This document shows positions 3,586-40,153 of a stretch of 40,660 nucleotides of DNA, in pieces. Both the position numbers and the translations under genes were made by a program. The notes under the pieces are model-generated. The model was not told where the DNA came from. It saw only the letters and a list, made by a program, of their open reading frames with translations, and searched no databases. The DNA is taken from the NCBI GenBank assembly GCA_903831825.1, contig CAIKZE010000046.1, forward strand, positions 1 through 40,660, given 5' to 3'. Positions within the stretch are counted from its first letter, which is position 1. The number at the start of each line of letters is the position of its first letter. The stretch is from an uncultured Lentisphaeria bacterium. GTDB lineage: Bacteria > Verrucomicrobiota > Lentisphaeria > Victivallales > Victivallaceae.

Positions 3586-3590
3586 TAAAT

Positions 3591-4433: not shown

Positions 4434-4437
4434 CAAT

Positions 4438-7416
4438 ATGGCATTCAATGAGCTTAACAGCGTGGAATATTTCATTATTCACCAGCTTACCGGGATTAAT
4501 CTGAACCAGGTTCAGCATGGGATGGTCAAGGAAGAAGCCGCGCCTTATGTCAATAATGCCAAATGGAAATATGTTCAGCCGGAATTGCTGCCGCGCGAGA
4601 TAACCGATGTTTTTCTGGAAAAGGAATTAAAAGAGTCATTAATTCGCCTGAACCCGGCAATCGCCGCCAATCCCGAACGCGCCGAAGAGGTCATTCACAA
4701 ACTGCGCGCCATTCTGATTACCGTCGGAAATGTCGGGCTGGTGCGCGCAAATGAAGAATTTGCCAAATGGCTGCGCGGAGAAATCTCGATGCCGATTGGC
4801 AATGACAATGAGCATGTAAATATCCGCCTGATAGATTTTGAGTGCATAAACAACAATACTTTTCTGCTGACGAATCAGTTCAAAATACGCGTCCGGGAAA
4901 CTAAAATACCCGATATCGTAATGTTTGTAAACGGCATTCCGCTGGTCGTGGGTGAAGTGAAAACTCCGGTGCGTCCGGCGGTTACCTGGTTTGACGGTGC
5001 GCACGATATTCATGTGATTTACGAAAACGCCGCGCCGCAACTGTTTGTGCCGAATGTGTTCTCTTTTGCTTCCGAAGGGAAAGAACTGTATATCGGCGGA
5101 GTAAGAACCCCGCTGGAATTCTGGTCGCCATGGCGGCTGGAGGATGAAAAAGATGAACTGCATCATTTTGCCGGTTTGCAGGATGTCGCCCGGCAGGTAA
5201 CTCATTTGCTGAAGCCTTCCACGCTGCTGGACATCTTGCAATACTTCACGATTTACGCCACCAGCAGCAAAAAGAAAAAGATAAAAGTGGTCTGCCGTTA
5301 CCAGCAGTACGAAGGCGCCAATGCCATTGTCGAGCGGGTAAAGGAAGGCAAAATCAAGAAAGGCCTAATCTGGCATTTTCAGGGCTCGGGCAAATCGCTG
5401 CTGATGCTGTTTGCCGCACAAAAAATGCGCAAGCAGGAGGAATTAGGTAGTCCCACGGTACTGATTGTGGTTGACCGGGTGGACCTGGACACGCAGATAA
5501 CCGCGACTTTCAATACCGCCGAAGTGCCGAATATGGTAACCACCGACAATATCAAAGAACTGCATGATCTGCTGGAAAGAGACTCCCGGAAAATCATCAT
5601 TACCATGATTCATAAATTTAAAGAGGCGTATCCCGATATGAACAAGCGGGAAAATATCATCGTGATGGTGGACGAAGCGCACCGGACGCAGGAAGGCGAC
5701 CTGGGCCGCAAAATGAGAAACGCACTACCTAACGCCTTTCTTTTCGGCTTGACCGGAACGCCGATCAACCGTGCTGACAAAAATACGTTCTGGGCATTCG
5801 GGGCCGAAGAAGATTCGAACGGTTACATGAGCCGTTACACTTTTCAGGACAGCATTCGCGACAACGCCACGCTGCCGCTGCACTTTGAACCGCGCCTGCC
5901 GGACTATCACATAGACAAAGATAGCCTGGATGTCGCATTCAAAGAATTGGCGAACGACCTGAGCGAAGACGACCGCAACAAACTGAGCCAGAAAGCCGCG
6001 AAAATGGCGGTATTTTTAAAATCTCCGGAACGGGTGCGCACCATCGTTCAGGATATAGCGGAGCATTTTCAAAAGCATGTGGAACCGGAAGTGTTCAAGG
6101 CAATGATCGTAACCCCCGACCGCTATGCCTGCATCCAGTACAAAGCGGAACTGGATAAATTGCGTTCCCCTGAATCCAGCATTGTTGTCATCAGCACCTC
6201 CGTCAATGATAATTCGGAAGTAAAACAGAACTTCGGCATGGACCGGGACCAGCAGGAAAAGGTGATTGAAAAGTTCAATGATCCGGATTCGCCGCTGAAA
6301 TTCCTGATTGTTACCGCGAAACTGCTAACCGGTTTTGATTCGCCGATTCTACAGACGATGTATCTGGATAAATCGCTTAAAGACCATACGCTGCTGCAAG
6401 CGATCTGCCGTACAAACCGGCTCTTTCCGAATAAAACCTTTGGCCGGATAGTTGATTACTTCGGGGTTTTTGACGACACGGCCAGCGCGCTGGCATTCGA
6501 TGAAGAATCGGTCAAGAAAGTTATCACCAACTTGCAGGAATTGCGCGACAAACTGCCGGAACAAGTAACGCTTTGCCTGTCGCATTTTTCGGGCGTGGAT
6601 AGAACCGTTGAAGGTTTTGAAGGCTTGCAGGCCGCGCAGGATCGCATCAACTCGAACGATAAACGCGATGCTTTTGCCAAAGATTTCAGTTTATTGTCGA
6701 AGTTGTGGGAAGCACTTTCCCCGGATGACGTACTGAGAAATTATCAAAGAGATTATAAATGGCTTTCACAGGTTTATACCTCAGTCAAACCGGGGGCCGA
6801 CGATAACGGCAGATTATTATGGCATGCTTTAGGCGCGCAAACGACGGCGCTTATTCATGAACATATCCATGTTACAGGCATCAATCACGATATGGAAGAA
6901 GTGATTTTAGATGCTGACGTAATCGATAACCTGATGAATAAGAAGGATCCGAAACAGGCGGAAAAAGTTTTGAAAATCCTTGTAAGTAGACTTGGCAAAC
7001 ATGGCGGCAATCCGATTTTCAGGAAGTTAAGCGAAAGGCTTGAAGCATTGAGAGACAAGGCCGAAAAAGGTTTGATTAACTCCATTGAATTCATTAAAGA
7101 ACTTTGCCAGATAGCGAAAGAGACACTACAGGCGGAAAAACAAACCGTTACGCCGGAAGAACAAAAAAGCGCGAAAACCGCCTTGACCGAATTGTTTCTT
7201 GAACTGAAAACGGACACCACGCCGGCCATTGTCGAGCGGATAGTCAATGATATTGATGAAATTGTTCGTCTGGTCCGCTTTGACGGCTGGCAAAATACGA
7301 TTCCCGGCGAAAGAGAAGTTCAAAAATCTTTACGCAAGACATTGTTGAAATATCAGTTGCATAAGGATGAAGAACTTTTCAATAAGTCGTATGAATATAT
7401 CAAGGAATATTATTAA
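4438..7416 (+). CDS. hsdR: Type I restriction endonuclease subunit HsdR
   Basis: This is the motor and nuclease subunit, which translocates DNA using ATP and cuts at a distance. The nuclease core is visible as D159 (PDIVMF) with E173 and K175 (GEVKTP), a PD-(D/E)xK signature. Superfamily 2 helicase motifs follow: Walker A GSGKS with K319, DEAH at 412-415, a TGTP motif shortly after, and a later QAICRTNR motif VI. The length of 992 aa is typical. The C-terminal third is helical and presumably contacts HsdM. All catalytic residues I looked for are present, so the system appears intact. It is the last gene of the tightly packed operon; no hairpin terminator is evident after it. Confidence 0.95.
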   Translation: MAFNELNSVEYFIIHQLTGINLNQVQHGMVKEEAAPYVNNAKWKYVQPELLPREITDVFLEKELKESLIRLNPAIAANPERAEEVIHKLRAILITVGNVGLVRANEEFAKWLRGEISMPIGNDNEHVNIRLIDFECINNNTFLLTNQFKIRVRETKIPDIVMFVNGIPLVVGEVKTPVRPAVTWFDGAHDIHVIYENAAPQLFVPNVFSFASEGKELYIGGVRTPLEFWSPWRLEDEKDELHHFAGLQDVARQVTHLLKPSTLLDILQYFTIYATSSKKKKIKVVCRYQQYEGANAIVERVKEGKIKKGLIWHFQGSGKSLLMLFAAQKMRKQEELGSPTVLIVVDRVDLDTQITATFNTAEVPNMVTTDNIKELHDLLERDSRKIIITMIHKFKEAYPDMNKRENIIVMVDEAHRTQEGDLGRKMRNALPNAFLFGLTGTPINRADKNTFWAFGAEEDSNGYMSRYTFQDSIRDNATLPLHFEPRLPDYHIDKDSLDVAFKELANDLSEDDRNKLSQKAAKMAVFLKSPERVRTIVQDIAEHFQKHVEPEVFKAMIVTPDRYACIQYKAELDKLRSPESSIVVISTSVNDNSEVKQNFGMDRDQQEKVIEKFNDPDSPLKFLIVTAKLLTGFDSPILQTMYLDKSLKDHTLLQAICRTNRLFPNKTFGRIVDYFGVFDDTASALAFDEESVKKVITNLQELRDKLPEQVTLCLSHFSGVDRTVEGFEGLQAAQDRINSNDKRDAFAKDFSLLSKLWEALSPDDVLRNYQRDYKWLSQVYTSVKPGADDNGRLLWHALGAQTTALIHEHIHVTGINHDMEEVILDADVIDNLMNKKDPKQAEKVLKILVSRLGKHGGNPIFRKLSERLEALRDKAEKGLINSIEFIKELCQIAKETLQAEKQTVTPEEQKSAKTALTELFLELKTDTTPAIVERIVNDIDEIVRLVRFDGWQNTIPGEREVQKSLRKTLLKYQLHKDEELFNKSYEYIKEYY

Positions 7417-7617
7417 TCCGTACTTAGCCTGTTTTGTACTATCGGGATCGTACTTTAGCTTTTGTGTTTTGAATTTATATTATAGCTGAGATAAATGGTT
7501 TTGAGGGCCTTGGGACTGGTAAGAAGTGAAGTTATCTGCAAGACATAAGGAAAAGCGGAATGGAAGATTTTGAACAGATAATCCGGCTTGTGATTAAGAT
7601 AAAGAGGTAATGAAAAA

Positions 7618-8442
7618 ATGAAAAACCAGAAAATTGATGTTCAAGGTAAAGAGATAACAATTATAACCAGAGAACAGAAAGACTACATTTCTTTGACAGA
7701 TATTGCCAAATACAAAAACATTGATGCTCCCGCTGATATTGTAAAAAACTGGATGCGAAGCCGGAGCACGATTGATTTTCTCGGGTTATGGGAAAGATTA
7801 AATAACCCAAATTTTAAACTGGTCGAATTCGACCAGTTTAGAAATGAAGCCGGGGCTAATTACTTTGTCTTATCCCCGCTGAAATGGATTGAAACCACTA
7901 ATGCTATCGGCATTATTTCCAGATCCGGCAAAAACGGTGGGACTTTTGCTCACAAAGATATTGCTTTTGAATTTGCCTCCTGGGTTTCGTCAGAATTCAA
8001 ACTGTATCTTATTAAAGAATTTCAGCGGCTTAAAGATGAAGAGAACAACCGTCTCAGACTGGACTGGACTCTGCAGCGGACTATCTCTAAAATAAATTAC
8101 CTTATTCATACCGACGCCATAAAAGCGAATCTTATTCCTCCTGAATTATCGAAAAAACAAACTCAGTTAATCTATGCCAGTGAAGCCGATATTCTCAATA
8201 TGGCGATGTTCGGCATGACCGCCAAAGAATGGCGTGACCGCAATCCCGGCAAAGACGGAAATATCCGGGACACGGCAACGCTGGAACAACTGGTGGTTCT
8301 GTCCAATCTGGAAAGTATTAATTCGGTTTTAATACATCAAGCGGTTCCGCCAGGTGAACGTTTGACCCATTTGAACCAAATAGCCATTACGCAGATGAAA
8401 TCGCTGTTGGAGAATAGAAATATCAAGCGGTTGAAGCAATAA
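7618..8442 (+). CDS. KilA-N domain protein
   Basis: The KilA-N DNA-binding region covers about residues 10-130 (YISLTDIAKYKN, NPNFKLVEFDQFRNEAG, SGKNGGTFAHKDIAFEFA), followed by a C-terminal half of roughly 140 residues typical of chromosomal KilA-N proteins (QTQLIYASEADILNMAMFG, AKEWRDRNPG). Such genes come from phages and accompany restriction loci as accessory genes of unknown function. It lies 201 nt after hsdR in the same direction, preceded by AGAGG and a 16-codon mini-frame at 7560-7610 that ends just before the ATG. A 26-bp perfect palindrome lies inside the coding sequence at 7815-7840. The family call is firm; the cellular role is not known. Confidence 0.88.
   Translation: MKNQKIDVQGKEITIITREQKDYISLTDIAKYKNIDAPADIVKNWMRSRSTIDFLGLWERLNNPNFKLVEFDQFRNEAGANYFVLSPLKWIETTNAIGIISRSGKNGGTFAHKDIAFEFASWVSSEFKLYLIKEFQRLKDEENNRLRLDWTLQRTISKINYLIHTDAIKANLIPPELSKKQTQLIYASEADILNMAMFGMTAKEWRDRNPGKDGNIRDTATLEQLVVLSNLESINSVLIHQAVPPGERLTHLNQIAITQMKSLLENRNIKRLKQ
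7815..7840. repeat. 26-bp perfect palindrome inside the KilA-N gene
   Basis: TAAACTGGTCGAA is followed directly by its reverse complement with no spacer. It encodes the conserved KLVEFDQFR segment of the KilA-N domain. The symmetry is exact over 13 bp per arm. Confidence 0.9.
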
Positions 8443-8616
8443 TATGAATAACCCAGCGAAAGAAATCAAAGCAAGCAGATTATCGTTACGCTGTCACGAT
8501 AATTGGTTGAGCAATCTTGATGCAGGCGGCATCAAACGTTTATAGCACCAACGGGCGCGGATTGTTCGACCCCGACGAGGTCGCAGGTATATTGGATGAT
8601 TGTTTCTATAAACGTG

Positions 8617-8633
8617 TTATCCCGTCGGGATAA
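8617..8633. repeat. 17-bp palindrome TTATCCCG-T-CGGGATAA
   Basis: The arms are exact 8-bp reverse complements around a single central base. There is no T-run after it, so a terminator reading is weak. Confidence 0.7.
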
Positions 8634-8685
8634 TAAAACCATTGGAGCAGAAACCTCCGCCTGAACCAGGATTGAAAAGAGGTTG

Positions 8686-8710
8686 AGTCCGTGACAAATT
8701 GTCACGGACT
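8686..8710. repeat. 25-bp palindrome with 12-bp arms
   Basis: AGTCCGTGACAA is followed by one base (A, 8698) and its exact reverse complement. It lies about 245 bp after the KilA-N gene. With no poly-T it is more likely a protein binding site or repeat element than a terminator. Confidence 0.8.
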
Positions 8711-9000
8711 TAGGTTAGAAAGTTTCAGACGGCAATACCTGGAATATCGGGTTCGCTCTTTAGTTTTGGCGCTTTCGTTGCTTGAATACCGGAACAATAT
8801 GCCGCTCCGCTGGAGCTGAAAATTATTTTATGGTTTTAATGCTATTAATATTCCGCACCGCTGTCGCTACGGCATTTCCAATAAATTCATTATTACCTTG
8901 AAGACAGACCTTTCGGCATTGCCTGGTATAAATTCCGGAATCCGCTGTTGACTAATTGCAGAATCGCGATAATTTTCATTTGGAACAAATGAGACTTGGA

Positions 9001-9028
9001 GAATTCAGTAGTCAGAATTCAGTAGTCA
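9001..9028. repeat. Tandem duplication of GAATTCAGTAGTCA
   Basis: Two exact 14-bp units lie side by side, followed by a third start (GAATA). This is a spacer-type repeat with no coding role visible. Confidence 0.8.
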
Positions 9029-9122
9029 GAATAAAACGGTATTACGGCATGACAGTTTAACGGTATTACAGTCAAACCGTAAAACCGTGAAGCCGTTAAA
9101 CCGGCAAATGATTTCTTTGTGT

Positions 9123-13468: not shown

Positions 13469-13583
13469 ACATCTTCAATATTTGTGCTATATTATATAGT
13501 AATTAAGAAGATTATGCCATGTATTTTCGGGTTTGCATAACCCCGGCGTAATGGACTGATTAAAGCATAAGGGAAAGGGAGTT

Positions 13584-16925: not shown

Positions 16926-18443
16926 ATGAGAGTACCAACCAACCCTAAAAATCCGAGAATTCTGATTGTAACGCCGGAGATCACGTATCTGCCGGAGGGA
17001 ATGGGCAATATGTCCAACATGCTGCAGGCGAAAGCCGGCGGCCTGGCGGACGTTTCAGCTTCGCTGGTGGCGGCGCTGTTTAAACAGGGTGCGGACGTTC
17101 ATGTCGCCCTGCCGCATTATCGCAGAATGTTTCACATTGATGTGGGCAAGCTCATCAACAGCGAATTGCTGGTTTATAAAAGTCATCTGTCCAATTCCAG
17201 GATTCATCTGGCGGAAGACCGGGTATTTTACTACCGCGACACGGTTTACAGCAATTATCACGAAGACAGCTTGAAGTTTGCGCTGGCGTTCCAGCGCGAA
17301 ATTATCAATAATATTATTCCCAAAGTCGAACCCGACCTGATTCACTGCAACGACTGGATGACCGGGCTTATCCCGGCCGCGGCGCGCCGCATGGGCATTC
17401 CCTGCCTGTTTACGGTGCATAACATCCATACCCAGAAAATAACGCTGGATTACATTGAAGACCGCGGCATTGACTCGGCCGATTTCTGGAATAATCTTTA
17501 TTTCCAGCGTCCGCCGCATAATTACGAGGAATCCCGTTCGACTAATCCGGTGGATATGCTGACCAGCGGGATATTCGCGTCGCATTTCATCAATACCGTC
17601 AGCCCGACTTTCCTCGATGAAATCGTCGAAGGCCGGCATCCGTTTATTCCCGGCAATATTCAATATGAAATATCCTGCAAGAAACAGTCCGGCTGCGCCA
17701 AAGGGATTCTAAATGCTCCGGACGAAACATTCAATCCGGAAACCGATATGATGATTGAGGCCTGCTACAACGCAGGCAATCACGCCGAGAAAAAAATAGA
17801 GAACAAAGTGGCGTTCCAGCGCAAAACCGGACTGCATGTTGATCCTAACGCGCCGCTGTTTTTCTGGCCTTCGCGGCTTGACCCGATCCAGAAAGGCTGC
17901 CAGCTCCTGACCGACATTCTCTATAAACTGGTCTCCGACTATTGGGGCGAAAAACTCCAGGTGGCGATTGTCGCCAACGGTGCTTATGAAAAATATTTCC
18001 ATGAAATTGTCAGGTTCCATAATTTGCATAAACGCGTGGCGGTATGCGCTTTTGACGAAGCCCTTTCGCATCTGGGTTATGCGGCCTCCGACTTCATGCT
18101 GATACCTTCGAAATTCGAGCCATGCGGACTGCCGCAGATGATCAGTCCGATCTATGGTTCGCTGTCGATCGCCATGGATACCGGCGGCCTGCATGATACG
18201 GTGGAACATCTTAACCTGGAGAAGAATGAAGGCAACGGTTTTGTCTTCAAGACTTATGACGCCAACGGACTGCGCTGGGCGATTGACCAGGCAATGAGTT
18301 TCTACCGGCAGCCGAAAGCAGTTAAAGCAAAACAGATTTCCAGGATTATGAAAGAATCCAAAACGCGGTTCAACCATTCCGTAACCGCGCAGGAATATAT
18401 AGACATTTACGAAGTAATGCTTGAACGCCAGCTTGTCCACTGA
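16926..18443 (+). CDS. glgA: Glycogen synthase, GT5
   Basis: It transfers glucose from a nucleotide sugar (ADP-glucose in bacterial relatives) to the growing alpha-1,4 chain. The N-terminal KAGGLADV motif (K36) binds the donor, and the C-terminal EPCGLPQ motif (E398) is the retaining GT-B signature. DLIHCNDWMTGLIP and TVHNIHTQ are further family blocks. At 505 aa it is of normal length. GGGAG lies 6 nt before the ATG. It overlaps the next frame by one base (TGATG), implying coupled translation with glgB. The first segment carries an insertion (YLPEGMGNMSNMLQA) between the first strand and KAGG, which is longer than in E. coli GlgA. Confidence 0.93.
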   Translation: MRVPTNPKNPRILIVTPEITYLPEGMGNMSNMLQAKAGGLADVSASLVAALFKQGADVHVALPHYRRMFHIDVGKLINSELLVYKSHLSNSRIHLAEDRVFYYRDTVYSNYHEDSLKFALAFQREIINNIIPKVEPDLIHCNDWMTGLIPAAARRMGIPCLFTVHNIHTQKITLDYIEDRGIDSADFWNNLYFQRPPHNYEESRSTNPVDMLTSGIFASHFINTVSPTFLDEIVEGRHPFIPGNIQYEISCKKQSGCAKGILNAPDETFNPETDMMIEACYNAGNHAEKKIENKVAFQRKTGLHVDPNAPLFFWPSRLDPIQKGCQLLTDILYKLVSDYWGEKLQVAIVANGAYEKYFHEIVRFHNLHKRVAVCAFDEALSHLGYAASDFMLIPSKFEPCGLPQMISPIYGSLSIAMDTGGLHDTVEHLNLEKNEGNGFVFKTYDANGLRWAIDQAMSFYRQPKAVKAKQISRIMKESKTRFNHSVTAQEYIDIYEVMLERQLVH

Positions 18444-20485
18444 TGACTGTGCCGCCTATCAAAAAGGAACCGTTTATGTTCAAACACCGGCCGAATGTCA
18501 TTGCCGAATTGCGGCAGGATTCTTATCTGGCGCCTTACCTTGACCGCCTGAACTCGCGCCGTCTCCAGGCTGAAGACATGGAACGGAAAATCGTCGGGGA
18601 AGGGCGTTCGCTGGCTGATTTCGCGTCCGGGCATGAATTTTTCGGACTCCACTTCCGCGACGGCGGCTGGATTTTTCGCGAATGGGCGCCGAATGCGACG
18701 GAAATATTTATGGTCGGAGACTTTTCCGACTGGAAAGAGTTGCCTAAATTCAGCTTGAAGAAAAGCGGCGGCACTGGAGTCTGGGAAGCCATACTGCCGG
18801 CCGGCGCCATGTGTCACGGCATGCTTTACCGGTTGAAAATCCACTGGCGCGGCGGTTCGGGTGACCGGCTGCCGGCTTATGCCAGGCGGGTAGTCCAGGA
18901 CCAGCATACCCTGATTTTCAATGCTCAGGTATGGCAGCCGCAACCTTACAACTGGAAAAACCGCCCGCCGGATTTCAGCAATAAACCGCCGATGATCTAC
19001 GAAACCCATGTCGGCATGTCCCGCGAGTTTGCCGGTGTCTCTTCCTACCGGCAGTTTCAGGAAGAAGTGCTGCCGCGGATCGTCCGTTCCGGCTACAACA
19101 CCGTCCAGATCATGGCCGTAATGGAACATCCGTACTACGGCTCGTTCGGCTATCATGTATCCAACTTTTTCGCCGCGTCTTCCCGTTTCGGCACCCCGGA
19201 AGAATTCAAGGAACTCGTGGATACCGCCCACGGCTGCTGCCTGCGGGTGATTATTGACCTGATCCACTCCCACGCCGTGCGCAACGAAATCGAAGGCCTC
19301 GGACGCTTTGACGGAACCAGATATCAATATTTCCATGCGGGGGACCGGGGCAGCCATTCCGCCTGGGATTCCTACTGCTTCGACTATTCCAAACCCCAGG
19401 TGCTCCATTTTCTGCTGTCCAACTGCCGTTTCTGGCTGGACGAATACCGGGTGGACGGATTCCGTTTCGACGGCATCACCAGTATGCTCTACCATCATCA
19501 CGGCCTTGGAAACGCGTTTACCAGCTATCATGATTATTTCAGCAGCCAGGTGGACGAAGAATCGCTGACTTACCTGACACTGGCAAACAAAGTGATTCAC
19601 CAGGTCCGTCCGGACGCGATCACCATTGCCGAGGACGTCAGCGGGATGCCGGGACTGGCCGCGCCGGTTGAGCAGTGCGGCTGCGGTTTCGACTACCGCC
19701 TGGCGATGGGCGTGACCGACTACTGGTTTAAACTGTTCGACATTCCGGATGAAGCCTGGAGCATGTCCGGATTGTGGCATGAACTCACCAACCGGCGGCG
19801 CGATGAAAAGACGATCAGCTATGTCGAATGCCATGACCAGGCGATTGTCGGCGGCCAGACCGTCATCTTCCGGCTGATCGGCAAAGATATGTATGACGCC
19901 ATGCATAAGGATTCCCGCAATTTGTTGGTTGACCGCGGCATGGCCATTCACAAGATGGCGCGGCTGGCAACGCTTGCCACAGCCGGCAACGGCTACCTGA
20001 ATTTCATGGGCAATGAATTCGGGCATCCGGAATGGATTGATTTTCCACGCCAGGGTAATAACTGGTCATATCACTATGCCAGGCGGCAATGGTCGCTGGC
20101 GGATAATCCCGACCTGCGCTATCATTTCCTTCAGGCCTTTGACCGCGAAATGGTTAAAATAGCGCAAAAATACAATCTGATTAATACCGGGTCGCAGAAA
20201 TTATACATAAACGACGATCAAAAAATAATGGCGTTTGAACGCGGCGGCCTGTTCTTTTTCTTCAACTTCCATCCGTCTGAATCATATACTAATTATCCGG
20301 TGGAAACCTTGCCCGGAGAATATGTTTTGGAACTGGATACCGACTCCCCGGACTTCGGCGGCCACGCCCGGCTCACTCCGGGACAGCATTATTTCACCAC
20401 CCCCGAAAAACACGGCAATGAAATCCGCAACATGTTGAAATTATATCTGCCTTCCCGCACCGCCATCGTCCTCAGAAGGAAATAA
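18443..20485 (+). CDS. glgB: 1,4-alpha-glucan branching enzyme, GH13_8 (eukaryote-like) type
   Basis: It cuts alpha-1,4 chains and re-attaches them as alpha-1,6 branches. A CBM48-like N-terminal domain (FREWAPNATEIFMVGDFSDW) precedes the barrel. Region I is DLIHSHAVRNE, region II GFRFDG with nucleophile D343, region III IAEDVS with E397, and region IV ECHDQA with D465; VQIMAVMEHPYYGSFGYH is characteristic of the eukaryotic-type subfamily. The length is 680 aa from ATG 18443; ATG 18476 is an equally good start because AAGGAA is 6 nt before it. The last ~20 codons are the sequence repeated downstream at 22615-22656 and 23791-23871. The gene is intact, so any insertion event rebuilt its end. Confidence 0.94.
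   Translation: MTVPPIKKEPFMFKHRPNVIAELRQDSYLAPYLDRLNSRRLQAEDMERKIVGEGRSLADFASGHEFFGLHFRDGGWIFREWAPNATEIFMVGDFSDWKELPKFSLKKSGGTGVWEAILPAGAMCHGMLYRLKIHWRGGSGDRLPAYARRVVQDQHTLIFNAQVWQPQPYNWKNRPPDFSNKPPMIYETHVGMSREFAGVSSYRQFQEEVLPRIVRSGYNTVQIMAVMEHPYYGSFGYHVSNFFAASSRFGTPEEFKELVDTAHGCCLRVIIDLIHSHAVRNEIEGLGRFDGTRYQYFHAGDRGSHSAWDSYCFDYSKPQVLHFLLSNCRFWLDEYRVDGFRFDGITSMLYHHHGLGNAFTSYHDYFSSQVDEESLTYLTLANKVIHQVRPDAITIAEDVSGMPGLAAPVEQCGCGFDYRLAMGVTDYWFKLFDIPDEAWSMSGLWHELTNRRRDEKTISYVECHDQAIVGGQTVIFRLIGKDMYDAMHKDSRNLLVDRGMAIHKMARLATLATAGNGYLNFMGNEFGHPEWIDFPRQGNNWSYHYARRQWSLADNPDLRYHFLQAFDREMVKIAQKYNLINTGSQKLYINDDQKIMAFERGGLFFFFNFHPSESYTNYPVETLPGEYVLELDTDSPDFGGHARLTPGQHYFTTPEKHGNEIRNMLKLYLPSRTAIVLRRK
20421..20485 (+). 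repeat. glgB 3'-end repeat, copy 1 (in the intact gene)
   Basis: This is the in-frame end of glgB, finishing YLPSRTAIVLRRK and stop. It is the reference copy for two orphan repeats downstream, all on the + strand and all still readable in the same frame. Confidence 0.85.
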
Positions 20486-20826
20486 ACTCGCACAGGGTAT
20501 TGAGTTCCGAATGATAAAAAAGAATAATATTCTGATGCAGGTTATCTCGGATATATGTGGGATGCCAAAGATATAATGTGTCATAGATGCGGAATAGAAC
20601 TATTATTAAAACAAATGTAGGTGAGGTAATTTCAAAACTATTGTTTTCATGTTTTCTACTATGCGTTTTGAGCGTAGCAATAGATCCTTATTTCAACTGA
20701 TTAAAAATGGGCTTTTGAAATTACCTCTAGAGATAATTTATTTTAAAACGTATAATGTTCTTGTCACTATTGAAATAGAAATCAGAGCGGTATATGTTAT
20801 GTTTGTGAATATAGGGGGTTTATACC
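20486..20826. other. Intergenic region between glgB and the accessory pair
   Basis: No gene is seen in these 341 bases. The frame at 20649-20846 crosses the hairpin structure and lacks a ribosome site. The main content is the nested inverted repeat at 20623-20727. The DNA is AT-rich compared with the glycogen genes, consistent with foreign material starting right after the glgB stop. Confidence 0.5.
20623..20727. other. 105-nt nested inverted repeat, candidate structured RNA or binding site
   Basis: The outer arms GAGGTAATTTCAAAA (20623-20637) and TTTTGAAATTACCTC (20713-20727) are exact 15-bp complements. Next to the left arm CTATTG (20638-20643) pairs with CAATAG (20678-20683), and inside that CTATGC (20659-20664) pairs with GCGTAG (20672-20677) with one G-U, closing a GTTTTGA loop. 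Three stems nest in one fold. It lies 99 nt before the unknown gene pair. Whether it is transcribed is not known. Confidence 0.6.
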
Positions 20827-21231
20827 TTGAAGAAACCAACATATAAGCATAACTCGAAACATTTGTCTGTTTCTTGCCCTGGGAATCTTAGTTTGAAGCA
20901 ATTAACGGCATTGGCTGCTCGTGTTCGTTATGTTGGAAGTTCTGATCACAAGGGGCATGGAAATTCTTTTTTCCCGCCCCCGGCAACGCCGCGTCCAACC
21001 GCATCGCTTTGTGACAATGTTATAACATTGGCGGTGGCAAATAAATGGTTAAAGCAAGGTATCTCAAGAGGGAACATTAACTGGTTTGAGCCTGCGGTTG
21101 GATATCCACGCTATGTTTGGTTTATCAATGATGATAATATAGTCTATGAAGCTAGGCTGACCAATCCGGGAAACGGTGAGTATAAAGGGTATCCTTTATA
21201 TCCGGATCAGCAAGTAAAAGGTCTTAAATGA
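20827..21231 (+). CDS. Uncharacterised 134-residue protein coupled to the ImmA/IrrE-like gene
   Basis: I do not recognise a named family with certainty. The protein is compact, basic at the N-terminus (MKKPTYKHNSKH), has a glycine/proline-rich stretch (SDHKGHGN, FFPPPATPRP), and ends in an aromatic block (GYPRYVWFIND, VYEARL, GEYKGYPL) that looks like a small alpha/beta enzyme or toxin-like domain. No signal peptide or membrane segment is present. It starts at TTG 20827, 8 nt after GGGGG, and its stop overlaps the next start (ATGA), so the two products are made together. Position in an accessory module between glgB-tail repeats suggests a mobile two-gene system such as toxin-antitoxin or defence; that is inference only. 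Confidence 0.7.
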   Translation: MKKPTYKHNSKHLSVSCPGNLSLKQLTALAARVRYVGSSDHKGHGNSFFPPPATPRPTASLCDNVITLAVANKWLKQGISRGNINWFEPAVGYPRYVWFINDDNIVYEARLTNPGNGEYKGYPLYPDQQVKGLK

Positions 21232-22532
21232 GTAGTATTTCGATAACAATCGGAGATTGGATTAAAGGGACGCCGCCTGAAGAGTTGGCGTTTACTAATG
21301 TTCCTTTAAAAATTAAACTAGATGATGAGATTATTACTCAACTTTCTGACCGTGAAAGCCGTTCATTAAGAGACGATCTTTTTATACCCCTTTACCCTTT
21401 GGCCGAATGGATCGCCGCTAATTGGTGGCGGTTACTTTATGAATGCAATGATCTGCATCGAAGAAATGACCTATCTTATGAATACTGTCATTATATGCGT
21501 TATGCTGGTGATGGGTATTTTTTACCTGACTTGAGAATTATGCCATGTGGTAATGAGATTGTATTTGATTGCATCAGAAGAGCTGATGATCTGTATTCAT
21601 TTGTAAACTCATTCAAAACATCAGTTCCTTTAAAAGATGTTGAGAGTGAATTTAAAAAATTCATAGAATTAGTTATCAGTCGACTACTGCATTGTGATAT
21701 AAAAAAAACTGTTCTTCAGAAAGATTGGGCCGCAATAAATGCTACTTTGCGTGATAAGGAAGAAAGATTTTTTTGTATTGCCGCGGCCCAGTTGGGCTTG
21801 GACCCGTATAACATTACGGAAGAACTATCTGATAGTATTATATCTGCATACGAATTGTTAAATAATAAGGTTGAACTTGGCGATTATTTCAGCGCTGTTC
21901 CGCAAAGCAATTTGGGTGAAATTACTGCGTGGATGAATAATGTAGCAGATAAAATGCTTAACAATACGCCGAAAAATAAAACACTGGCGAATATAAAAAA
22001 AGAGATTTCGGTTGTTGCAGATGGGGAAACGCCTTGGGCGCAAGGGTATAAAATTGCAAATTTTATCAGTAAAAAACTTTTCGGAGGAAAAAAATCCACG
22101 CAACGACTGTATGACTTTATCGATTCTGCGCAGATAAAATTCGATTCACGGCCTATTTCGCCGCTTTTTTGTAACGCATTGGTGAGTAGTTCCTCAAACA
22201 ATGAACCGGCTTTCATGGTTGATTTACAAGAAAATACTACGAAGAATAATTTTTTGGCTGGTCGGATGTTGGGTGAATATTTCTGTAATATTAAGACATC
22301 AATAGTAAACTGTATCTCTGTGGCCAAGACATTCAACCAACAGAGGAACAGAGCTTTTGCTGCCGAGTTATTGGCTCCGGCGGCATTTATTAAAGAAAAG
22401 CTTGGAGACTCCAAGGAAGTTGACTATGATGCTATTTCTGAATTGGCGTCAGAATGTCAGACCGAGGAATTCGTAATTCGCTATCAGATACAAAATCACC
22501 ATCTGGCAAAAATTACGCCTCAATATATCTAG
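21228..22532 (+). CDS. ImmA/IrrE-like protein with lost metal-binding site
   Basis: This is a 434-residue cytoplasmic protein. The N-terminal two thirds are unfamiliar. The C-terminal part follows the ImmA/IrrE metallopeptidase pattern: a helix NNFLAGRMLGEYF at the place of the usual HExxH helix (R346-ML-G-E), then NRAFAAELLAPAAFIKE (AELLAP at 378-383), and a closing ECQTEEFVIRYQIQNHHL resembling the FGVS..V.YRL.N end of the family. The HExxH residues are missing, so a zinc protease is unlikely; it may be a pseudo-enzyme regulator of its partner. It overlaps the preceding gene by 4 nt. Codon use is AT-rich compared with the glycogen genes, suggesting transfer. The family assignment is by eye and moderate. 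Confidence 0.6.
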   Translation: MSSISITIGDWIKGTPPEELAFTNVPLKIKLDDEIITQLSDRESRSLRDDLFIPLYPLAEWIAANWWRLLYECNDLHRRNDLSYEYCHYMRYAGDGYFLPDLRIMPCGNEIVFDCIRRADDLYSFVNSFKTSVPLKDVESEFKKFIELVISRLLHCDIKKTVLQKDWAAINATLRDKEERFFCIAAAQLGLDPYNITEELSDSIISAYELLNNKVELGDYFSAVPQSNLGEITAWMNNVADKMLNNTPKNKTLANIKKEISVVADGETPWAQGYKIANFISKKLFGGKKSTQRLYDFIDSAQIKFDSRPISPLFCNALVSSSSNNEPAFMVDLQENTTKNNFLAGRMLGEYFCNIKTSIVNCISVAKTFNQQRNRAFAAELLAPAAFIKEKLGDSKEVDYDAISELASECQTEEFVIRYQIQNHHLAKITPQYI

Positions 22533-22614
22533 ACAATGCTTTATCGTGATTGAGATATGTTGCCTTACTTTATTTTTGGTGCGATTTATAACATTCCGCT
22601 CTTTTTATGGGAGA

Positions 22615-22656
22615 TATTTGCCTTCCCGCACCGCTATCGTCCTTAGAAGAATATGA
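22615..22656 (+). repeat. glgB 3'-end repeat, copy 2 (orphan)
   Basis: It reads YLPSRTAIVLRRI and then TGA in the glgB frame. Differences from copy 1 are mostly silent (GCC to GCT, CTC to CTT, AGG to AGA), so it behaves like a coding remnant of a related glgB rather than a random repeat. It lies between the ImmA-like gene and the RhuM gene. Confidence 0.8.
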
Positions 22657-22690
22657 ACCGGTTGGACGGAACATTGGACGAAAAACTTGC

Positions 22691-22718
22691 TTGCATTTTA
22701 TCTGAACACACGCATATT
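22691..22718 (+). promoter_or_regulatory. Candidate promoter of the RhuM gene
   Basis: TTGCAT (22691-22696), a 16-base spacer and CATATT (22713-22718) lie 26 nt before the ATG. The flanking text TGCTTGCATTT and TCTG matches the element in front of hsdM (791-819). Confidence 0.45.
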
Positions 22719-22744
22719 TTATCCTGATAGGACAAAGAATAAAG

Positions 22745-23779
22745 ATGCAAATAAAAAGAAATGAAACTATGTGGGAACCTGATAGCGAAATTGTTATTTA
22801 CCAAAATCAGGACGGCAATGTCAAAATAGATGTGCGTCTGGAAGAGGAGACCGTTTGGCTGACACAGGCACAAATGGCGCTATTATTTAACAAAAGTAGA
22901 ACTACCATCACCGAACATATTCAGAATATATTCAAGGAAGGAGAACTCTGTGAGAGTTCAGTATGTCGGAATTTCCGACATACTGCCCAGGACGGCAAAA
23001 CATATGGAACCAATTACTATAATCTTGATATCATTATCTCCGTGGGCTACCGGGTAAAATCGCATCAGGGTACACAGTTCAGAATATGGGCGACGCAACG
23101 GCTTAAAGAATATATTGTTAAGGGTTTTGCGCTGAACGATGACCGCTTTAAGCGGGGCAATTCAATGAACTATTTCAACGAGTTGCAGGAACGCATTCGC
23201 GAGATTCGTTTGTCCGAGAGATTTTTCTATCAAAAAATAAAAGACATCTACACCACCAGCATAGACTATGACCCCGACGATGAAAAAACCATTGAGTTTT
23301 TCAAGATAGTGCAGAACAAACTGCTGTGGGCAATCAGCCGTCAAACCGCCGCTGAACTGATTTATCGCCGCGTGGACGCCGCATTGCCGCTTCTGGGGAT
23401 GCAGTCGTTAGACAAAAGCAGCGCGTCCAAGGTCAAAAAGAGTGATATCAGCATTGCAAAAAACTATTTGAACGAAGACGAAATAAAACTGCTTGGCTTA
23501 TTAGTCGAGCAATATCTGGCTTTTGCCGAGACCATGGCGCAGCAGCGCAAACCGATGTATATGGCGGATTGGATAAGCAAATTAGACGATATTTTGCAGC
23601 TTAACGGCAGAGAATTGCTTACTCATGCCGGAAAAATCAGTCATGAAATGGCCTTGCAAAAATCAAATCAGGAATTTGAGAAATATCAGGAAGAGCAAAA
23701 AATAATTGCCCATGAGCTAAGTTTAAAAGAGATAGAAGCGGATATTAAGCAATTGAAACAAATAGCAAAAAATGATTAA
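22745..23779 (+). CDS. RhuM-family protein
   Basis: The 344-residue protein carries the family blocks EIVIYQNQDGNVKIDVRLE split around residues 14-32, TVWLTQAQMALLF, ESSVCRNFRHTAQDGKTY, YNLDIIISVGYRVKS and QFRIWATQRLKEYIVKGF. RhuM was named from a Salmonella pathogenicity island; the N-terminal half looks like a DNA-binding accessory domain and such genes recur in genomic islands with restriction systems, but the biochemical role is not established. The C-terminal tail is rich in E and K and probably coiled (EFEKYQEEQKIIAHELSLK). ATG 22745 is used; the AGGA before it is 12 nt away, so the start is less sure (ATG 22769 is an alternative). It is flanked by glgB-tail copies 2 and 3. Confidence 0.9.
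   Translation: MQIKRNETMWEPDSEIVIYQNQDGNVKIDVRLEEETVWLTQAQMALLFNKSRTTITEHIQNIFKEGELCESSVCRNFRHTAQDGKTYGTNYYNLDIIISVGYRVKSHQGTQFRIWATQRLKEYIVKGFALNDDRFKRGNSMNYFNELQERIREIRLSERFFYQKIKDIYTTSIDYDPDDEKTIEFFKIVQNKLLWAISRQTAAELIYRRVDAALPLLGMQSLDKSSASKVKKSDISIAKNYLNEDEIKLLGLLVEQYLAFAETMAQQRKPMYMADWISKLDDILQLNGRELLTHAGKISHEMALQKSNQEFEKYQEEQKIIAHELSLKEIEADIKQLKQIAKND
22959..22985. repeat. 27-bp palindrome inside the RhuM gene
   Basis: CAGTATGTCGGAA, one central T, then the exact reverse complement. It encodes the conserved SVCRNFRHTA segment. The arms are 13 bp, without mismatch. Confidence 0.9.
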
Positions 23780-23790
23780 GGCGGACTATG

Positions 23791-23871
23791 CCGGAGCACG
23801 TCAATTAAATCCGCAGCATGTTGAAGCTATATCTGCCTTCCCGCAGTGCCATCGTCCTCAGAAAAATATGA
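23791..23871 (+). repeat. glgB 3'-end repeat, copy 3 (orphan, longest)
   Basis: In the glgB frame it reads P-E-H-V-N, a stop in place of Glu, then IRSMLKLYLPSRSAIVLRKI and TGA. Compared with copy 1 it has one codon deleted, one nonsense change and several silent changes. It begins 12 nt after the RhuM stop and marks the end of the accessory block. Downstream, the minus-strand glycan locus begins. Confidence 0.85.
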
Positions 23872-23902
23872 ACTTGGCGTTTGTGTTGTAACGTCTATTT
23901 TT

Positions 23903-26900
23903 TCACAGCTTCAGGTAGATGATGCTGTATGATTTTAATATATCTTTAGGTACCGTTATCTGATATTGGCCGTTCTCCAGTTTCTTATATGGAACACTCT
24001 TTGGGCCGGAGAAATCAGGCGATGCCGCATACGCTTCAGAGATGGAGGCCAGCGGGAGATTGAAGATTAAATCCTCTTTCAATTCAGGCCATGCCGGATT
24101 AAACGCTTTCGTCCGCACGTCTTCATCTTTTTTATTGACAACTCCGGAGCCGTTTAATAAATGAACCATTGTAATTATTCCGCCATCCTTGCCGGGCTGG
24201 GCATATACGCTTACAAAAACGCTTTCTGGAATATTCGCCGGTGTTATAAACGGATCTTTGCCGGTGGCTTGCTGAAGAATAGACATATACAGCTTGGCAA
24301 GTTTTTCGTCTTTGACAAAACTCCATTTTTTGTTTATGGTTGTCTCCGGTTCATAAAGATTTCCGCCTAATTGAGCGCTGCAATAAAAGAACTTTCCTTT
24401 CCCATAATTGGCTTCAAATCCTATCGGCGCTTCCTGATGGTTATTGCTCTTGGCGAAAAGGAACTGAATGGATTTATTCTTATCGGAAACTTGGGTTGGG
24501 AGATAATTTACCGGGGACAGCGTTTTAATATTCTCTTTATCCGCAGTCACTAATTCGCTTGTCTTTAAAATCTTAACCGGAACCGGAATCGCAATGCCGA
24601 AGACATCCTTGAACGGCCACTCCTTCCTGTAGGTCCCCATTTCGTCAGCAAGCCCGGCATGGCCGGAAAGATAGACATTCCCTCCGTTCCTTACATAATC
24701 TCTCAGCGCTTCTATCTGTTTATCGCCGAGGCATGACGCGCTGTTTATAAGCACGGATTTGTACTGCTTCAGTTTCTCCGGTTTCAGTTCCTCGTCAAAG
24801 ATGAATGAATGTTGAAAATGGTTATCCGTCAGCGTTTCGGAGGTTCCGATAATTTCCCCCGCAAACCCCATATCTTTCTGCCAGTCCCTGCTTTGTTCAG
24901 AGAAAAGCAGCGCCGTGTTTGAAACCGGCCGCGCATTTTTCATATCCATATTCAGCGGGAAATTTATAAAATCGCTTTTACCTGCCGGTTTAACCAGATT
25001 TGTAACCAGCCACGTTATCTGTCCATTCATATTGTTCATGGCCCAGCCGAAATATGCCAGATCCCAATCATCCATGGGGTAAACCAAACCAAATACCGGG
25101 GTGCCGTAGGTTTCCCGCAACGCGTTTTTGGCCTTTCTGAATGCATATATTGCGCGGCAGCTTGCCATTACATTACGGGACATTATTTCAGTACCCAGAA
25201 AATTACAGGCCCTGGCGACATTCGTTACGCCGGCGCCGAAATTAATTGAAGCGAAGTCGCTGCAATACCCGTAATGAGTAGTATAACAGAGCATTGTGAA
25301 ATCGGGCTTGAACTTATTTATTTGCTGACGGAGTTCCACCCACCAGTCCCCGACGGCTTTCTTGCGCCAGCTCAACCATGTCCTCCATACCACAGAGTCC
25401 TTGTTGAAAAGCTCCGGCGAAGTTTCATCAAGCGGCAGGACAAGGCCTGTCTCCCGGTGGAATGTTTCCCGGCAATCCTTGCAGCCGCAGAAGGTCGGAC
25501 CGTGAAAAAATACTTCGTCAATCATTATTCCGTCGATGCCGGTATTTTTTATAAAGCCGGTGATCCATTTGAAGTAATGTTCTTTGAACAACTTATTTAC
25601 CGGACATAAGCCGCGGGTCGGCAAACCGGTATCAACCGTGCGCTGCAGCCAGTCAGTATGCCCGGTCAGGACTCTGAATCCGCTGTCCAGATTCCAAAGC
25701 AAAGTCAAATCCTGATGATCAACAAGCGTTATGTCTTTCTTGTGAGCTTCCTGAGTCAGGAGTTTTATGTTCTCTTCCACCCTGTCCAGATGACTCGGAA
25801 AGGTATGTCTGGATAAAAATCCGTTCACAATGACCGCATTTACATTTTCCTTTTTGAGTTCCGAAAAACGCCGTTCAGCAAGTTCAGCGGTCGCATACTC
25901 GGTAAAATTACCCCAATTGGACGGGCCGAGAGAACCGATTACGGCATGATACCGCCAGTCAAGCGAAGTATCTTTCGCGTCCGGCAGGCAAATCTCGTAT
26001 TTCATTACCAGCGGTTTCGCATTGGCAATATCTTTTTGCGACGGCAGGCTGATCTCATCAATGGCGACTTTAAAATCAGGTTGTTTCTGGTAGTCTCTGC
26101 TCTTATACATCACCGATGGTTCAAACATATCTTCAGCCAGCCAGAAACCGCGCCTGAATTTAAAGTCTTCAGCCGTTGTTTGCAGTAATTGAAATCCCAG
26201 TGTTGAAATGTGCCAGTTTCCTTTCAATTCGACAGTCGCGCCGCCGTTTTCAATCCACTGCGGCCAGGTAACTGTTTTCACGGAATTTTTATCCATCACC
26301 AAATCCTCGGCTATCCGCATTCCATTACAGCCGACAGAGAATTTTTCTGAAGGTTCTGCAAAAGCCGCCGCCCGGAAAGTCACCAGATAAAGGCCGGGTT
26401 TCTCAAGCATACATTTAAACGCGGCATCATTTATTCCAGTTACCGCCGAATAAAGCGCGCCGGAAGGTGCCGCGGTCTCTATTTTTAAATCATTCCCGGA
26501 AAGCCAACCAAAACCATCTTTAGCCGAATATGCTTTTGTTCCCGCCGCTTGATACATTTTGCCGGTTTTCGGAGAACCAAATGAAAAGAGCGAAATTTCC
26601 GGCATATCACTGACTTCACTGCATGTTTTGTTGGCATGGCGTTTCTCATAGTCCTCATACTTGCCCTCAAAAATAATGACTTTGCTGTTTAAAATTTCTC
26701 CGGAAATACCGGGTTTTCTACCCAGTCCGCATTTAATAAATTTCCCATCCTTCCTGACGGACCATAGTCCTTGAATAACGGTGGGGCCGTAATCAGAAGC
26801 AGAAGCTACGCCTTCCGGATTAAAGTCAAAAACTATTTTTCTATCGCCATTTTCAAATGCCAGCCAGCGGACAGAACTTCCAATAAAGTTGCCGTCAGGA

Positions 26901-29528: not shown

Positions 29529-29803
29529 TATACTCTATAAGGTTGAAAATTTAAAATAGATTGCGAGGATTTTGAGAATTGGTTCGTATTCTGAGAGGCT
29601 GCCGATACCGGGGTATCGAAGGCCTCGAAGAGTGCGAATCCAAACTCAAAAGATCGCAATCCCGCAGGCGCGGGACGAGTGTCTTGCGGCTGTATTTTTC
29701 CGTTCCTCCTTCAGGCGATATTCATATCGCCAATCAGCCGGATCGAAAAAATCCAATCCACAATCCGACTCGTCTATGTTAAATTTTCAGCCTTATAGAG
29801 TAT
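29529..29803. mobile_element. MITE-like 275-bp element with terminal inverted repeats
   Basis: The ends 29529-29559 and 29773-29803 are inverted copies of about 31 bp with two mismatches, beginning TATACTCTATAAGG. The interior is a series of hairpins: CGATACC-GG-GGTATCG (29603-29618), TCCCGC-N4-GCGGGA (29660-29675) and GGCGATAT-TC-ATATCGCC (29714-29731). It encodes no protein. No target-site duplication was evident at the edges, so it could also be a non-mobile repeat element. Confidence 0.55.
29660..29675. repeat. REP-like hairpin TCCCGC-N4-GCGGGA (copy 3)
   Basis: Same arms as at 58-73 and 9123-9138, with loop AGGC. It lies inside the inverted-repeat element. Confidence 0.55.
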
Positions 29804-29920
29804 AAACTATGGCGAATATTATCTCAAAACAATAGCGTCCGGATGGAAAAAATCAATGATTGCAGGATATAAACCGAAAGTTAATTTAGCATATTCATTG
29901 CAATGCTTAAATATGTCTTT

Positions 29921-36858: not shown

Positions 36859-39800
36859 TTACTTGCTCCATGGAGAAATGAAAATATAGTTACCGGCTGA
36901 AATTTGGAAGACGGCGGAATTTTCAGCCAATTGTCTGCAAAACGTTTCGCTGCCGGACAACTTCTCCTTGATTTGCCTTGCATCGGTTGTCGGGACATAA
37001 ACAGTTGCGGCAGCATTTGCCGGAACCGTTATTTTAAGTTCAATATAACCTCTTTTCAGATGCCATTCAACATGGACAGTTCCATACGGCGACTTGAATG
37101 AGGCGTCAACATATTTCAGGTTGCCGACAATTGCGGGCTTGATGAGAATATTGGAAAATCCCGGACTGGCGGGATCAGGGCGAATGCCCGCAAGCCCCTG
37201 GTAAAACCAGACGCCAATCGCATTGTAGCAGTTATGTATATGGGAGCGTTTTCCGTTCCAGTATTCCCATGTGGTGGTAGCTCCTTTCCTCAGCATATAA
37301 CCGTAGCCGGGCTGAGTGACCTGAGAGAGCATGGCAAACATGAGATCATTGCGGCCGGAAGCCAGCAACTGTTTCTGCAGGAAATAGACGCCAACCAAGC
37401 CCACGGCAAAATGGGAGTTGTGCTTCACTGATATTTCATCTTCAAGTTTTTTCATCACTGTGCCGCGGAGAGCTTCAGGAACCACGCCAGTCAACAACGG
37501 AAATGCCAGATCAATCTGGTCTCCGTCCGCATAGGCATTGTTGACCGGATTGAAAAATGTGTTATGTACCGCGGTTCGCGCGGCAGTCATTAATCTGCGA
37601 AACTCCCGGCAGTCTGCTTTTTTGTTTAGCGCCTCCGCCAATTCAGCAGCCAGTTCGTAACAGTATATCCGGAAACAATTGTTGATGAGGTCAATGGATT
37701 GCGGGTCATTCTGGTTTATATCATCGGGGACAGCCCAGTCACCCAGACACCAGTTGCGATAGTCGGTTGACGGCCATTGTCTTAGAATATTGTCAACACA
37801 ATGCGATTCCACAAATCTGAGCCACTTTTTAATAGCCGGATAGTTTTTCGAAACCATTTGCCGATCTCCGTAATAAAGATAGCAATAGTATGTGCTGGTC
37901 AATAGAAATCCGCACCATACAGGCCCGCCGCCGGCCCGATAAGGATTAGGCGCCGTGTGCGGCATATCGCCATCAGCCCGCTGAGAGTCCAGCCATGCCG
38001 CGGTCCAATTTTTAAGTAAAGGGATTGGCTGAAACATCATCATAATGGATTCCATGGACGACTGTCCGTCGCCGCCATATCCCAGACGTTCGCGGTGCGG
38101 ACAATCCATAAAAATTCCACCGATGCTCAGACAACGCAACGTATATTCGATCATATCGCAAATATTGTTCAACAATTTGCTGGAACATTTGAACCGGCCC
38201 GCCGCGGCAAAATCTGTGTGAATCAGGTAAGCCCTGATATCCTTTTTAACAGGCGCGGCGGACAATCCTTTGACTTTGACATAGCGGAACCCGTGGTAGC
38301 TGAAATGATTGCAAAAACTATCTTCTCCCCTGCCGGAAGATATATACGCGTCCAATTGCCCGTAACCATCATTGGCGTTATCGTCCAAGGTGTCAAAATA
38401 TCTGAATTTAACGCTTTGTCCGGCAATCAGGCCGGACAGTTTCATTTCGAACCATCCGGTAAGATTGGTTCCCATGTCAACAAGCCATTCTCCATTGTCC
38501 AGCAATTGTATTTGGGTTGGGGATATTATGCGCTGAATACGATTGGGTTCAACTGGCTGGGCGCTGATTTTAATCTTGTCAACTACACAGACAACCGCAT
38601 TCTTCCAGCGCGCATCGTCGAAATTTACATCATTCCATTGCGGAACGAAAAGACGGTTGTCAATTATTTCACCGCCGGATTGCGCGCATTTCCAATTTCC
38701 TGTATGTATGATATGGCTGGGAGAGGCTTTCCAGTGACGGTCAGTTTTCGCGACAATCCGCCAATCATGACGATCATGAATTTCCAACTGTGCCTTCACC
38801 AATGGTCCCGGATGAAATACGCCGGCCAGTCCTTTGCGATACCAGCCATGGGCAATCCAAAATGCGATACAGTTTTTCCCCTTGTTCAAGTGTTTTTTCA
38901 CATCGTGAGTAATGTACCATGCCCGCTCATCATATTGTGAAACCGCCGGGCTCAACACATGATCGTCAACTTTATGTCCATTTATATATAGCTCATAATA
39001 TCCCAAAGCAGTAACATGGACGAAGGCCTTGTCAGGAAGCTCCTCCAGCACAAATGAACTCCTCAACCATGGGGTGGGACGCAGATATTCGGCGAGTTCC
39101 TCCCATGGTTTGCCTTTTGCCGCTTTCACTATATGTGCCGGAGGCCAGTCGGAATCGTCAAACGACGGCAACTCCCACCCTTCCGTCTTTCCGCATTTCG
39201 CGCGCCATTGTCCATTGGTGACCACAACCATTGGCTCGCCGGCGTCGAACTCAAACCAGAATCCGCCAATCAGTCCGGATGGGCGATATAGAGCTCCGAC
39301 TTCAATTGCGATCACATTTTTGCCGGCGTGAATAAATCCGGTGATATCTTCTGTAGTCTTAAATCCGATCTGTCTGCCATTGACAAACACAGGGAACCCT
39401 CCGGTTGCCTCCACCTGACTGAAAGCTCTGATTACCCGGCGATCCGGCGGTAACTCAATTGTGCGGCGAAACCGGCAGTCGGAACCCATATCATTTTTTG
39501 AAGACCATATCCATTGTTCCCGGGATTCAATGGCGGATGATTTCCCGCTATTGAGTCCGATCCATTCTCCTTTCCAATCCTGGGAACATAGCAATCCCGT
39601 AGTCCACATGGCGGGTTTGCTCCATGTTGATATACGATTATTCTGGTTCCAGACACGAACTTTCCAGTAACAGACGGTTCTGCTTTTTAATGGCATGCCG
39701 CAATATTCAACCAACACGCTTTGTGAACTTTCAACCTTTCCGCTATCCCATAAATCACCTTTTTCAGACTCCAGAAGCTCCAGAGACGAAGCCACAATCA

Positions 39801-39918: not shown

Positions 39919-39999
39919 ATCTTTATCCTTATTGCAATTATTCACATTATTATTCCAATAGCCAAATCAACACGGGATCGGCTTTTGTTTCAGTCTCTC

Positions 40000-40153
40000 C
40001 GGCCCCCCGCGGCAAAATCTGTGTGAACCAGGCAAGCCCTGATATCCTTTTTAACCGGCGCGGCGGACAATCCTTTGACTTTGACATAGCGGAACCCGCG
40101 GCAACTAAATGATTGCAAAAACTATCTTCTCCCCTGCCGGAAGGTATATCCGT
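40000..40153 (-). pseudogene. Internal fragment of a GH78 rhamnosidase gene (duplicate)
   Basis: About 150 bp match 38196-38347 of the intact rhamnosidase gene at roughly 93% identity, in the same orientation. It covers residues ~524-575 (the HGFRYVKVKGL region). One base is missing in the copy (CTAAAT at 40105-40110 against CTGAAAT), which shifts the frame, and similarity stops sharply on both sides. It cannot encode an enzyme. It lies about 80 bp upstream of the intact gene's start. Confidence 0.85.

Follow-up and report, generated by a model that had tools for sequence, protein, structure and literature searches.

The 3' end of glgB, the glycogen branching enzyme gene of an uncultured Lentisphaeria bacterium, appears to have twice received a small defence-type module by target-duplicating insertion, a reading to which we give a probability of roughly 0.55. 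The gene lies in a stretch of 40,660 nucleotides (hereafter the window), which is the entire contig C46 (CAIKZE010000046.1) of a 5.9-Mb draft genome, G000, with 506 contigs and a completeness of 93.5%. G000 has two relatives in its genus, G001 and G002, to whose glgB proteins its own is 89% identical. The features on which the argument rests are the following:

18443..20485, plus strand: glgB (glycogen branching enzyme; PF02806, PF00128, PF02922), whose 3' end is copied
20411..20488, plus strand: W1, the in-place glgB tail (repeat family D1; self-BLAST)
22614..22658, plus strand: W2, an orphan glgB tail of 45 nt, 86.7% identical to W1 (E 3.5e-8, window against itself)
23797..23874, plus strand: W3, an orphan glgB tail of 78 nt with in-frame TAA, 85.9% identical to W1 (E 4.9e-19), read as the displaced original tail
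20489..22613, plus strand: module B, the P3/P2 pair with its flanks, bounded by W1 and W2 and putatively inserted second (order from shared changes)
20827..21231, plus strand: P3, 134 aa, TTG start, family unassigned; it precedes P2 in 14 of 16 P2 loci including the window
21228..22532, plus strand: P2, 434 aa, ImmA/IrrE-like by the Peptidase_M78 matches of its family members; weak capP match (E 5e-4)
22659..23796, plus strand: module A, leader and RhuM, bounded by W2 and W3 and putatively inserted first
22688..22765, plus strand: leader of module A, 78 bp, with an 86% counterpart behind glgB of G001
22745..23779, plus strand: RhuM-family gene (PF13310, E 3.5e-102; PADLOC candidate family PDC-S05, E 9e-136)

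The sequence-only reading of this stretch had claimed that the last codons of glgB recur on one strand and in one frame, and self-BLAST confirms three direct copies on the plus strand, W1, W2 and W3, whose translations in the glgB frame are YLPSRTAIVLRRK, YLPSRTAIVLRRI and YLPSRSAIVLRKI, respectively, each followed by a stop. Each module is bounded by tails, as had likewise been proposed, with the P3/P2 pair between W1 and W2 and the RhuM gene between W2 and W3. The further claim that the base changes are mostly silent holds for W1 and W2, where five of the six coding-part changes are silent, and fails for W1 and W3, where 8 of the 11 changes are non-silent and one of them is the W3 stop codon (both counted on the alignment). 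We interpret the latter pattern as decay of W3. Homology to the glgB tail extends over 78-81 nt at W3 (91% over 81 nt to the tail of G002) versus 45 nt at W2. Both glgB-side junctions directly follow the stop codon, whereas the two orphan tails have unequal left limits.

Pairwise, the three tails differ by 6-11 changes, and they stand in unrelated flanks with intact open reading frames (ORFs). Both observations argue against an assembly chimera of strain variants, to which a metagenome-assembled draft in 506 contigs with no second assembly would be open, and the separate assembly of G001 has an orphan tail of its own; we hold such a chimera to be scarcely credible.

The tails do not behave as an ordinary, scattered repeat family. 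A degenerate 20-nt tail core matched W1, W2 and W3 alone at 0-1 mismatch in the draft genome, and a 31-nt core with up to three mismatches found no match in it beyond the same three places. At 2-3 mismatches the degenerate core matched 8 further places, versus 2 for a reversed control pattern.

Repeated tails of one gene raise the question of site-specific integration, in which a tyrosine or serine recombinase acting in trans would use an attachment site at the 3' end of glgB, as for the integrase-less relics beside integrative and conjugative elements (ICEs). Gene 3' ends are classic attachment sites, and the use of one gene twice, on the same strand and with the gene restored each time, would be accounted for. 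In the accretion of ICEs and cis-mobilizable elements (CIMEs) at gene 3' ends, serial tails of one gene bound the modules, and the glgB modules are likewise bounded by serial tails of one gene. They differ in that no attachment-site core or integrase was found, in that the modules consist of one or two genes, and in that related modules occur at unrelated genes. In place of the fixed core or crossover in every tail that characterizes accretion of the CIME or staphylococcal cassette chromosome type, the duplications are of unequal length (45 and 78 nt) and do not share a left limit. No further glgB-tail core was present at 0-1 mismatch in the 93.5% complete draft, so that no resident site was found, and the six targets duplicated around related modules, gene tails as well as gene heads, have no common core. 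The earlier remark that no integrase is visible was borne out, as none of the 20 scanned ORFs of the window matched a recombinase family (the scan was confined to the window). The notion of a gene-tail attachment site is not supported by these findings, and we regard it as unlikely.

The tails fold no better than shuffled sequences (z 0.58, -0.05 and -0.14), which counts against integration at such a site and also against the idea that the tail was duplicated or retained as the carrier of a terminator or RNA element. Every copy does follow a same-strand gene, and a terminator-like site lies directly after W3 (23876-23895). Nevertheless, no terminator-like site lies inside the copies (5 in the stretch versus 3.2 expected), the copies differ in extent, W3 decays, and an Rfam search over 20300-24100 gave three matches at E <=1, all under the gathering score. 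A functional element of this kind therefore seems most improbable. Integron cassettes are not matched either: the tails fold like shuffles, the repeats are coding gene ends, and the 20 ORFs include no integrase (no attC model was run).

The relative age of the two insertions can be approached through the changes shared among the tails. Over glgB, G001 and G002 group as sisters, with G000 outside (146 sites versus 96 and 91). At alignment columns 33 and 39 W1, W2 and W3 share states against G001 and G002, which suggests that W3 belongs to the G000 lineage; column 33, where the W2 repeat begins, is masked for W2 in the column table, while the printed sequence shows the same letter. At columns 50 and 68 W1 groups with W2 and W3 stands outside, which would place RhuM first and P3/P2 second. 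These few characters support an insertion of RhuM before that of P3/P2, and with it the earlier proposal of serial insertion behind glgB, one tail copy per event. Parallel change is required at columns 20 and 30, which place W1 with G001 and W3 with G002. W3 differs from the G002 tail at 7 of 78 positions versus 11 of 78 from W1; this fits the expectation for W3 as the old tail and W1 as the most changed one.

Comparison with related genomes places these events at a locus that has seen other changes. Among the glgB loci of 20 relatives, followed for 2.5-15 kb downstream, 18 have no repeated tail (G002 has a single one). One further locus has a 12-nt tail match at chance level (E 0.009), and G001 has an exact 20-nt copy of its own glgB tail starting 91 nt past the stop (E 4e-7). 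Relatives that lack the modules and yet possess all three tails, which would have spoken against serial insertion, were not seen, and 19 of the 20 glgB genes are without a convincing extra tail. Behind glgB, G001 has a module of different genes between 142-bp repeats that are 98% identical; this repeat belongs in part to a genus-wide dispersed family, and a near full-length copy was seen only twice. Among 37 genomes, only G001 has a strong counterpart of the RhuM leader, which lies at the same locus there and precedes a different gene. Tail, different cargo and common leader in G001 together suggest that the region behind glgB is an old turnover site. In G002, P2 was not found, and RhuM occurs on other contigs only. 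A dispersed repeat with a GGATATTGGATATTCC-type core is present in G000, G001 and G002 with at least 49 to 66 matches per genome (196-bp query, E 0.001; 40 candidates scored per genome).

The RhuM gene is firmly assigned to its family (341.5 bits against PF13310, curated cut-off 33.7), while the two genes of module B are more elusive. P3 has no Pfam, NCBIfam, PHROGs or PADLOC match at E 0.1, and its matches to solved-structure profiles are at E 0.42 or worse. P2 itself does not match the Peptidase_M78 (ImmA/IrrE) model, which 4 of 10 aligned members of its family do (E <=0.01, best 8.4e-6), and against solved-structure profiles it gives weak matches only, mostly to apolipoprotein helices (best E 0.0045). 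AlphaFold models of P2 and P3 from two-row alignments had a mean pLDDT (predicted local distance difference test) of 35.8 and 36.4 and were not used.

Relatives of P2 are sporadic, being present in 11 of 387 genomes of the phylum, G000 included, and in 6 of 384 genomes of the class of another genome, G191 (two already in the phylum set, two partial matches only), besides six plasmid records and one viral contig. Some of these loci, one RhuM locus and a different module of G000 have the architecture seen at glgB. In genome G094 the P3/P2 pair lies between copied ends of a WYL-domain gene, 148 and 55 bp long; beyond its three places, this tail recurs only as the end of a paralogue at 75% and at two chance-level places, and the WYL gene itself is present in 4 of 43 genomes of the family at E 1e-40. 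In G191 two elements occur twice, the tail of hsdS and the head of an ImmA gene, in the layout tail-module-head, tail-module-head. At a RhuM homologue in G129 (1 of 30 RhuM loci) the following gene encodes a chromate transporter and has its head copied over 179 bp at 95.5% identity. In 283 kb of the bacterium's own genome outside the window, contig C360 (L219, 16900-19300) contains an SLFN_AlbA_2-type gene between 178-bp copies that are 93% identical, the second of which reaches a broken RhuM start. Repeats around the modules range from 45 to 179 bp.

The same C360 region, a second serial-scar region of this genome, also contains what by eye appears to be a truncated Bro-type fragment. On the Agrobacterium plasmid pAt2 (L148), P3/P2 adjoins a restriction endonuclease gene and lies between copies of the 3' part of an integrase gene (4746-5364 and 8470-9089, 76%). 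In G247 and G191 the P3/P2 pair is located between hsdS and hsdR (L105 and L107, the latter with other genes too), and a copied flank was not detected at the G247 locus; P3/P2 may be an accessory pair of type I restriction-modification systems.

Several observations, at these loci as well as in the counts that follow, weigh against two target-duplicating insertions. The leader is common to G001 and G000 at the same locus, which suggests that module A is in part older than a single insertion. By this comparison the leader probably predates the presence of RhuM there, and the RhuM event may have been an exchange of cargo behind an old leader. In the examined genomes, an empty site between two conserved flanks was not found: the upstream side of glgB is collinear in G001 and G002, while the downstream side is non-syntenic among the three genomes of the genus. 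The layout in G191 would be explained better by the joining of two alleles than by simple target duplication. The 178-bp unit of C360 has an extra 58-bp copy adjacent to it and an 83% partial relative on contig C188. In five viewed RhuM regions of E. coli (4698 records match one query) no fresh insertion was seen; judged by annotation, three lie at selC and two within a stretch that resembles an ICE.

Flanking repeats are likewise missing from most loci. The P3/P2 test set comprised 14 loci, with the window left out and L151 dropped for its 107-bp upstream flank. Strong flanking repeats were found at four (L107, L108, L148 and L150) and were missing from the other 10, as well as from 27 of 30 RhuM loci; gene-end copies were confined to L107 and L108. 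As candidate gene-end copies, L150 was rejected for its intergenic repeats and L148 because the copy is a 620-bp integrase fragment of 76% identity, and L153 and L178 were set aside as intergenic repeats; two of the three RhuM positives are intergenic repeats. A first control gave repeats at 1 of 360 random intervals (p 6e-6 for any repeat, 0.004 for gene-end copies), but 64 of these intervals were drawn from eight P3/P2 loci whose lack of a flanking repeat was already established, and some places were covered twice. A second control, from which P3/P2 loci without repeats were excluded, gave 5 of 318 intervals, all five from stretches of G000 (5 of 96), and weakened the excess for P3/P2 (p 2e-4 for any repeat, 0.03 for gene-end copies). 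Against the G000 stretches alone the values were 0.015 and 0.22. For RhuM, whose flanks are mostly about 1.3 kb and thus shorter than those of P3/P2, control intervals of matching geometry were used; repeats at 3 of 30 loci versus 6 of 318 intervals gave p 0.03, and the single gene-end copy p 0.47.

The statistical excess of scars is modest and varies with the control. G000 including the window has 25 local repeats in 324 kb, many of them in paralogous or internally repeated ORFs, and at least three of its five repeat-bearing random intervals have their repeats inside paralogous ORFs; G011, a complete relative, has 4 in 400 kb, all inside ORFs. We conclude that G000 is repeat-rich and that the case for a module-specific process draws more on the individual structures than on counts.

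On the favoured reading, the leader and RhuM would have been inserted behind glgB in a first step, with W3 as the displaced tail, and the P3/P2 pair would have been inserted between glgB and module A in a second, leaving W2 behind. Each time, the copy on the glgB side would preserve the C-terminus of the enzyme, whereas the distal copy would be orphaned and decay. Incoming DNA would be joined with an overlap of about 45-180 bp between the two junctions, and a site-specific integrase would be unnecessary. One junction could be made by homologous recombination within the conserved glycogen genes and the opposite one by illegitimate joining, in which case the donor's glgB-module junction would be carried along; the glgB-side junctions just behind the stop and the unequal left limits of the orphan tails fit this route. 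The bridging of offset breaks in sister chromosomes fits as well, and the data do not separate the two routes.

A different role for the cargo is conceivable, in which the P3/P2 pair itself forms a new class of minimal mobile element, whose proteins, or their unbalanced toxic action, provoke offset chromosome breaks where the module joins. Target duplications of 45-180 bp at gene ends would then arise in the absence of a transposase or integrase, and RhuM modules may travel as P3/P2 would. We consider this highly unlikely.

Two insertions with long target duplication would have a close precedent. This mode of insertion is described from Helicobacter pylori comparisons, in which it is tied to restriction-modification genes (PMC1643837, PMC3031569); the original reports are Nobusato et al. 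2000, Gene 259:99, and Furuta et al. 2010, NAR (as cited in PMC3031569, PMC1643837 and PMC4978471). As far as these accounts go, the glgB locus resembles the Helicobacter cases in that an accessory block lies between long, variable, target-derived direct repeats (here 45 and 78 nt, with a single tail behind glgB of G002) and no transposase is present. It differs in its cargo, RhuM and an ImmA-like pair in place of restriction-modification genes, in two successive events at one gene, in the partial decay of the repeats, and in that no empty site was found in a close strain. For want of restriction-modification cargo and an established empty site in a close relative, we file the case as a variant of long target duplication. 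The mode itself is thus known for restriction-modification genes, and on our analysis the cargo and the two steps at one gene are what differ. A link between long target duplication and RhuM or ImmA-like genes was not found in the titles and abstracts searched.

Flanking repeats may also serve a resident module. For HpyAII of Helicobacter pylori, deletion and regain are reported to make use of 80-bp flanking repeats (Aras et al. 2001 as cited in PMC7494987), and by that account a defence-type locus with flanking direct repeats of similar length is common to both cases. RecA-dependent loss through the repeats, by deletion or circularisation, and regain by homologous recombination would fit this common architecture and the several tails at one gene in both G000 and G001; the deleted or regained form, as reported for HpyAII, was not seen at glgB. 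The first origin of the repeats would be left unexplained. Moreover, the repeats are short and 13-14% diverged, and repeats of this kind are expected to be poor RecA substrates, which makes such a cycle quite unlikely as the explanation.

The one-sided route of joining has its own parallels in homology-facilitated illegitimate recombination, described in competent species (PMC2884548), and in hotspots fed by recombination at flanking core genes (2017, PMC5635113). The likeness to these processes, as there outlined, is that a conserved gene anchors the turnover of accessory genes with no visible integrase. The difference is that a simple sliding comparison of glgB divergence among G000, G001 and G002 gave no clear recombination tract.

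How defence modules of one or two genes move in the absence of visible mobile elements is an open question. The two-gene family, found beside copied gene ends in three unrelated settings, provides a handle on it, and the scars at the core gene glgB record the order of two events. Our observations suggest that an insertion which duplicates part of the target, with no dedicated integrase, brings such modules into genomes, and that the long-target-duplication mode may extend to other defence-type cargo and to Lentisphaeria. Population reads and a laboratory model can now be searched for sites with and without an insert, for overlaps at the breakpoints and for deletion by way of the repeats.

Along the window, a type I restriction-modification system is followed by the glycogen cluster, of which glgB is the last gene, then by the two modules and by mostly carbohydrate-type genes. 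In the restriction-modification system (851-8442), hsdS and hsdR are separated by a Bro-N gene, and a KilA-N gene follows. Downstream of the modules, a MITE-like (miniature inverted-repeat transposable element) stretch of 276 bp at 29529-29804 has inverted ends of 32 bp; it has a 92% match in G002 at the place where window positions 13515-13544 align, and the window, which lacks the stretch there, has an apparent empty site. Finally, a 155-bp internal piece (38194-38348) of an alpha-L-rhamnosidase gene (36859-39945, minus strand) is copied at 39999-40152, upstream of the start of the gene, with 93.5% identity, and is another local partial gene duplication.

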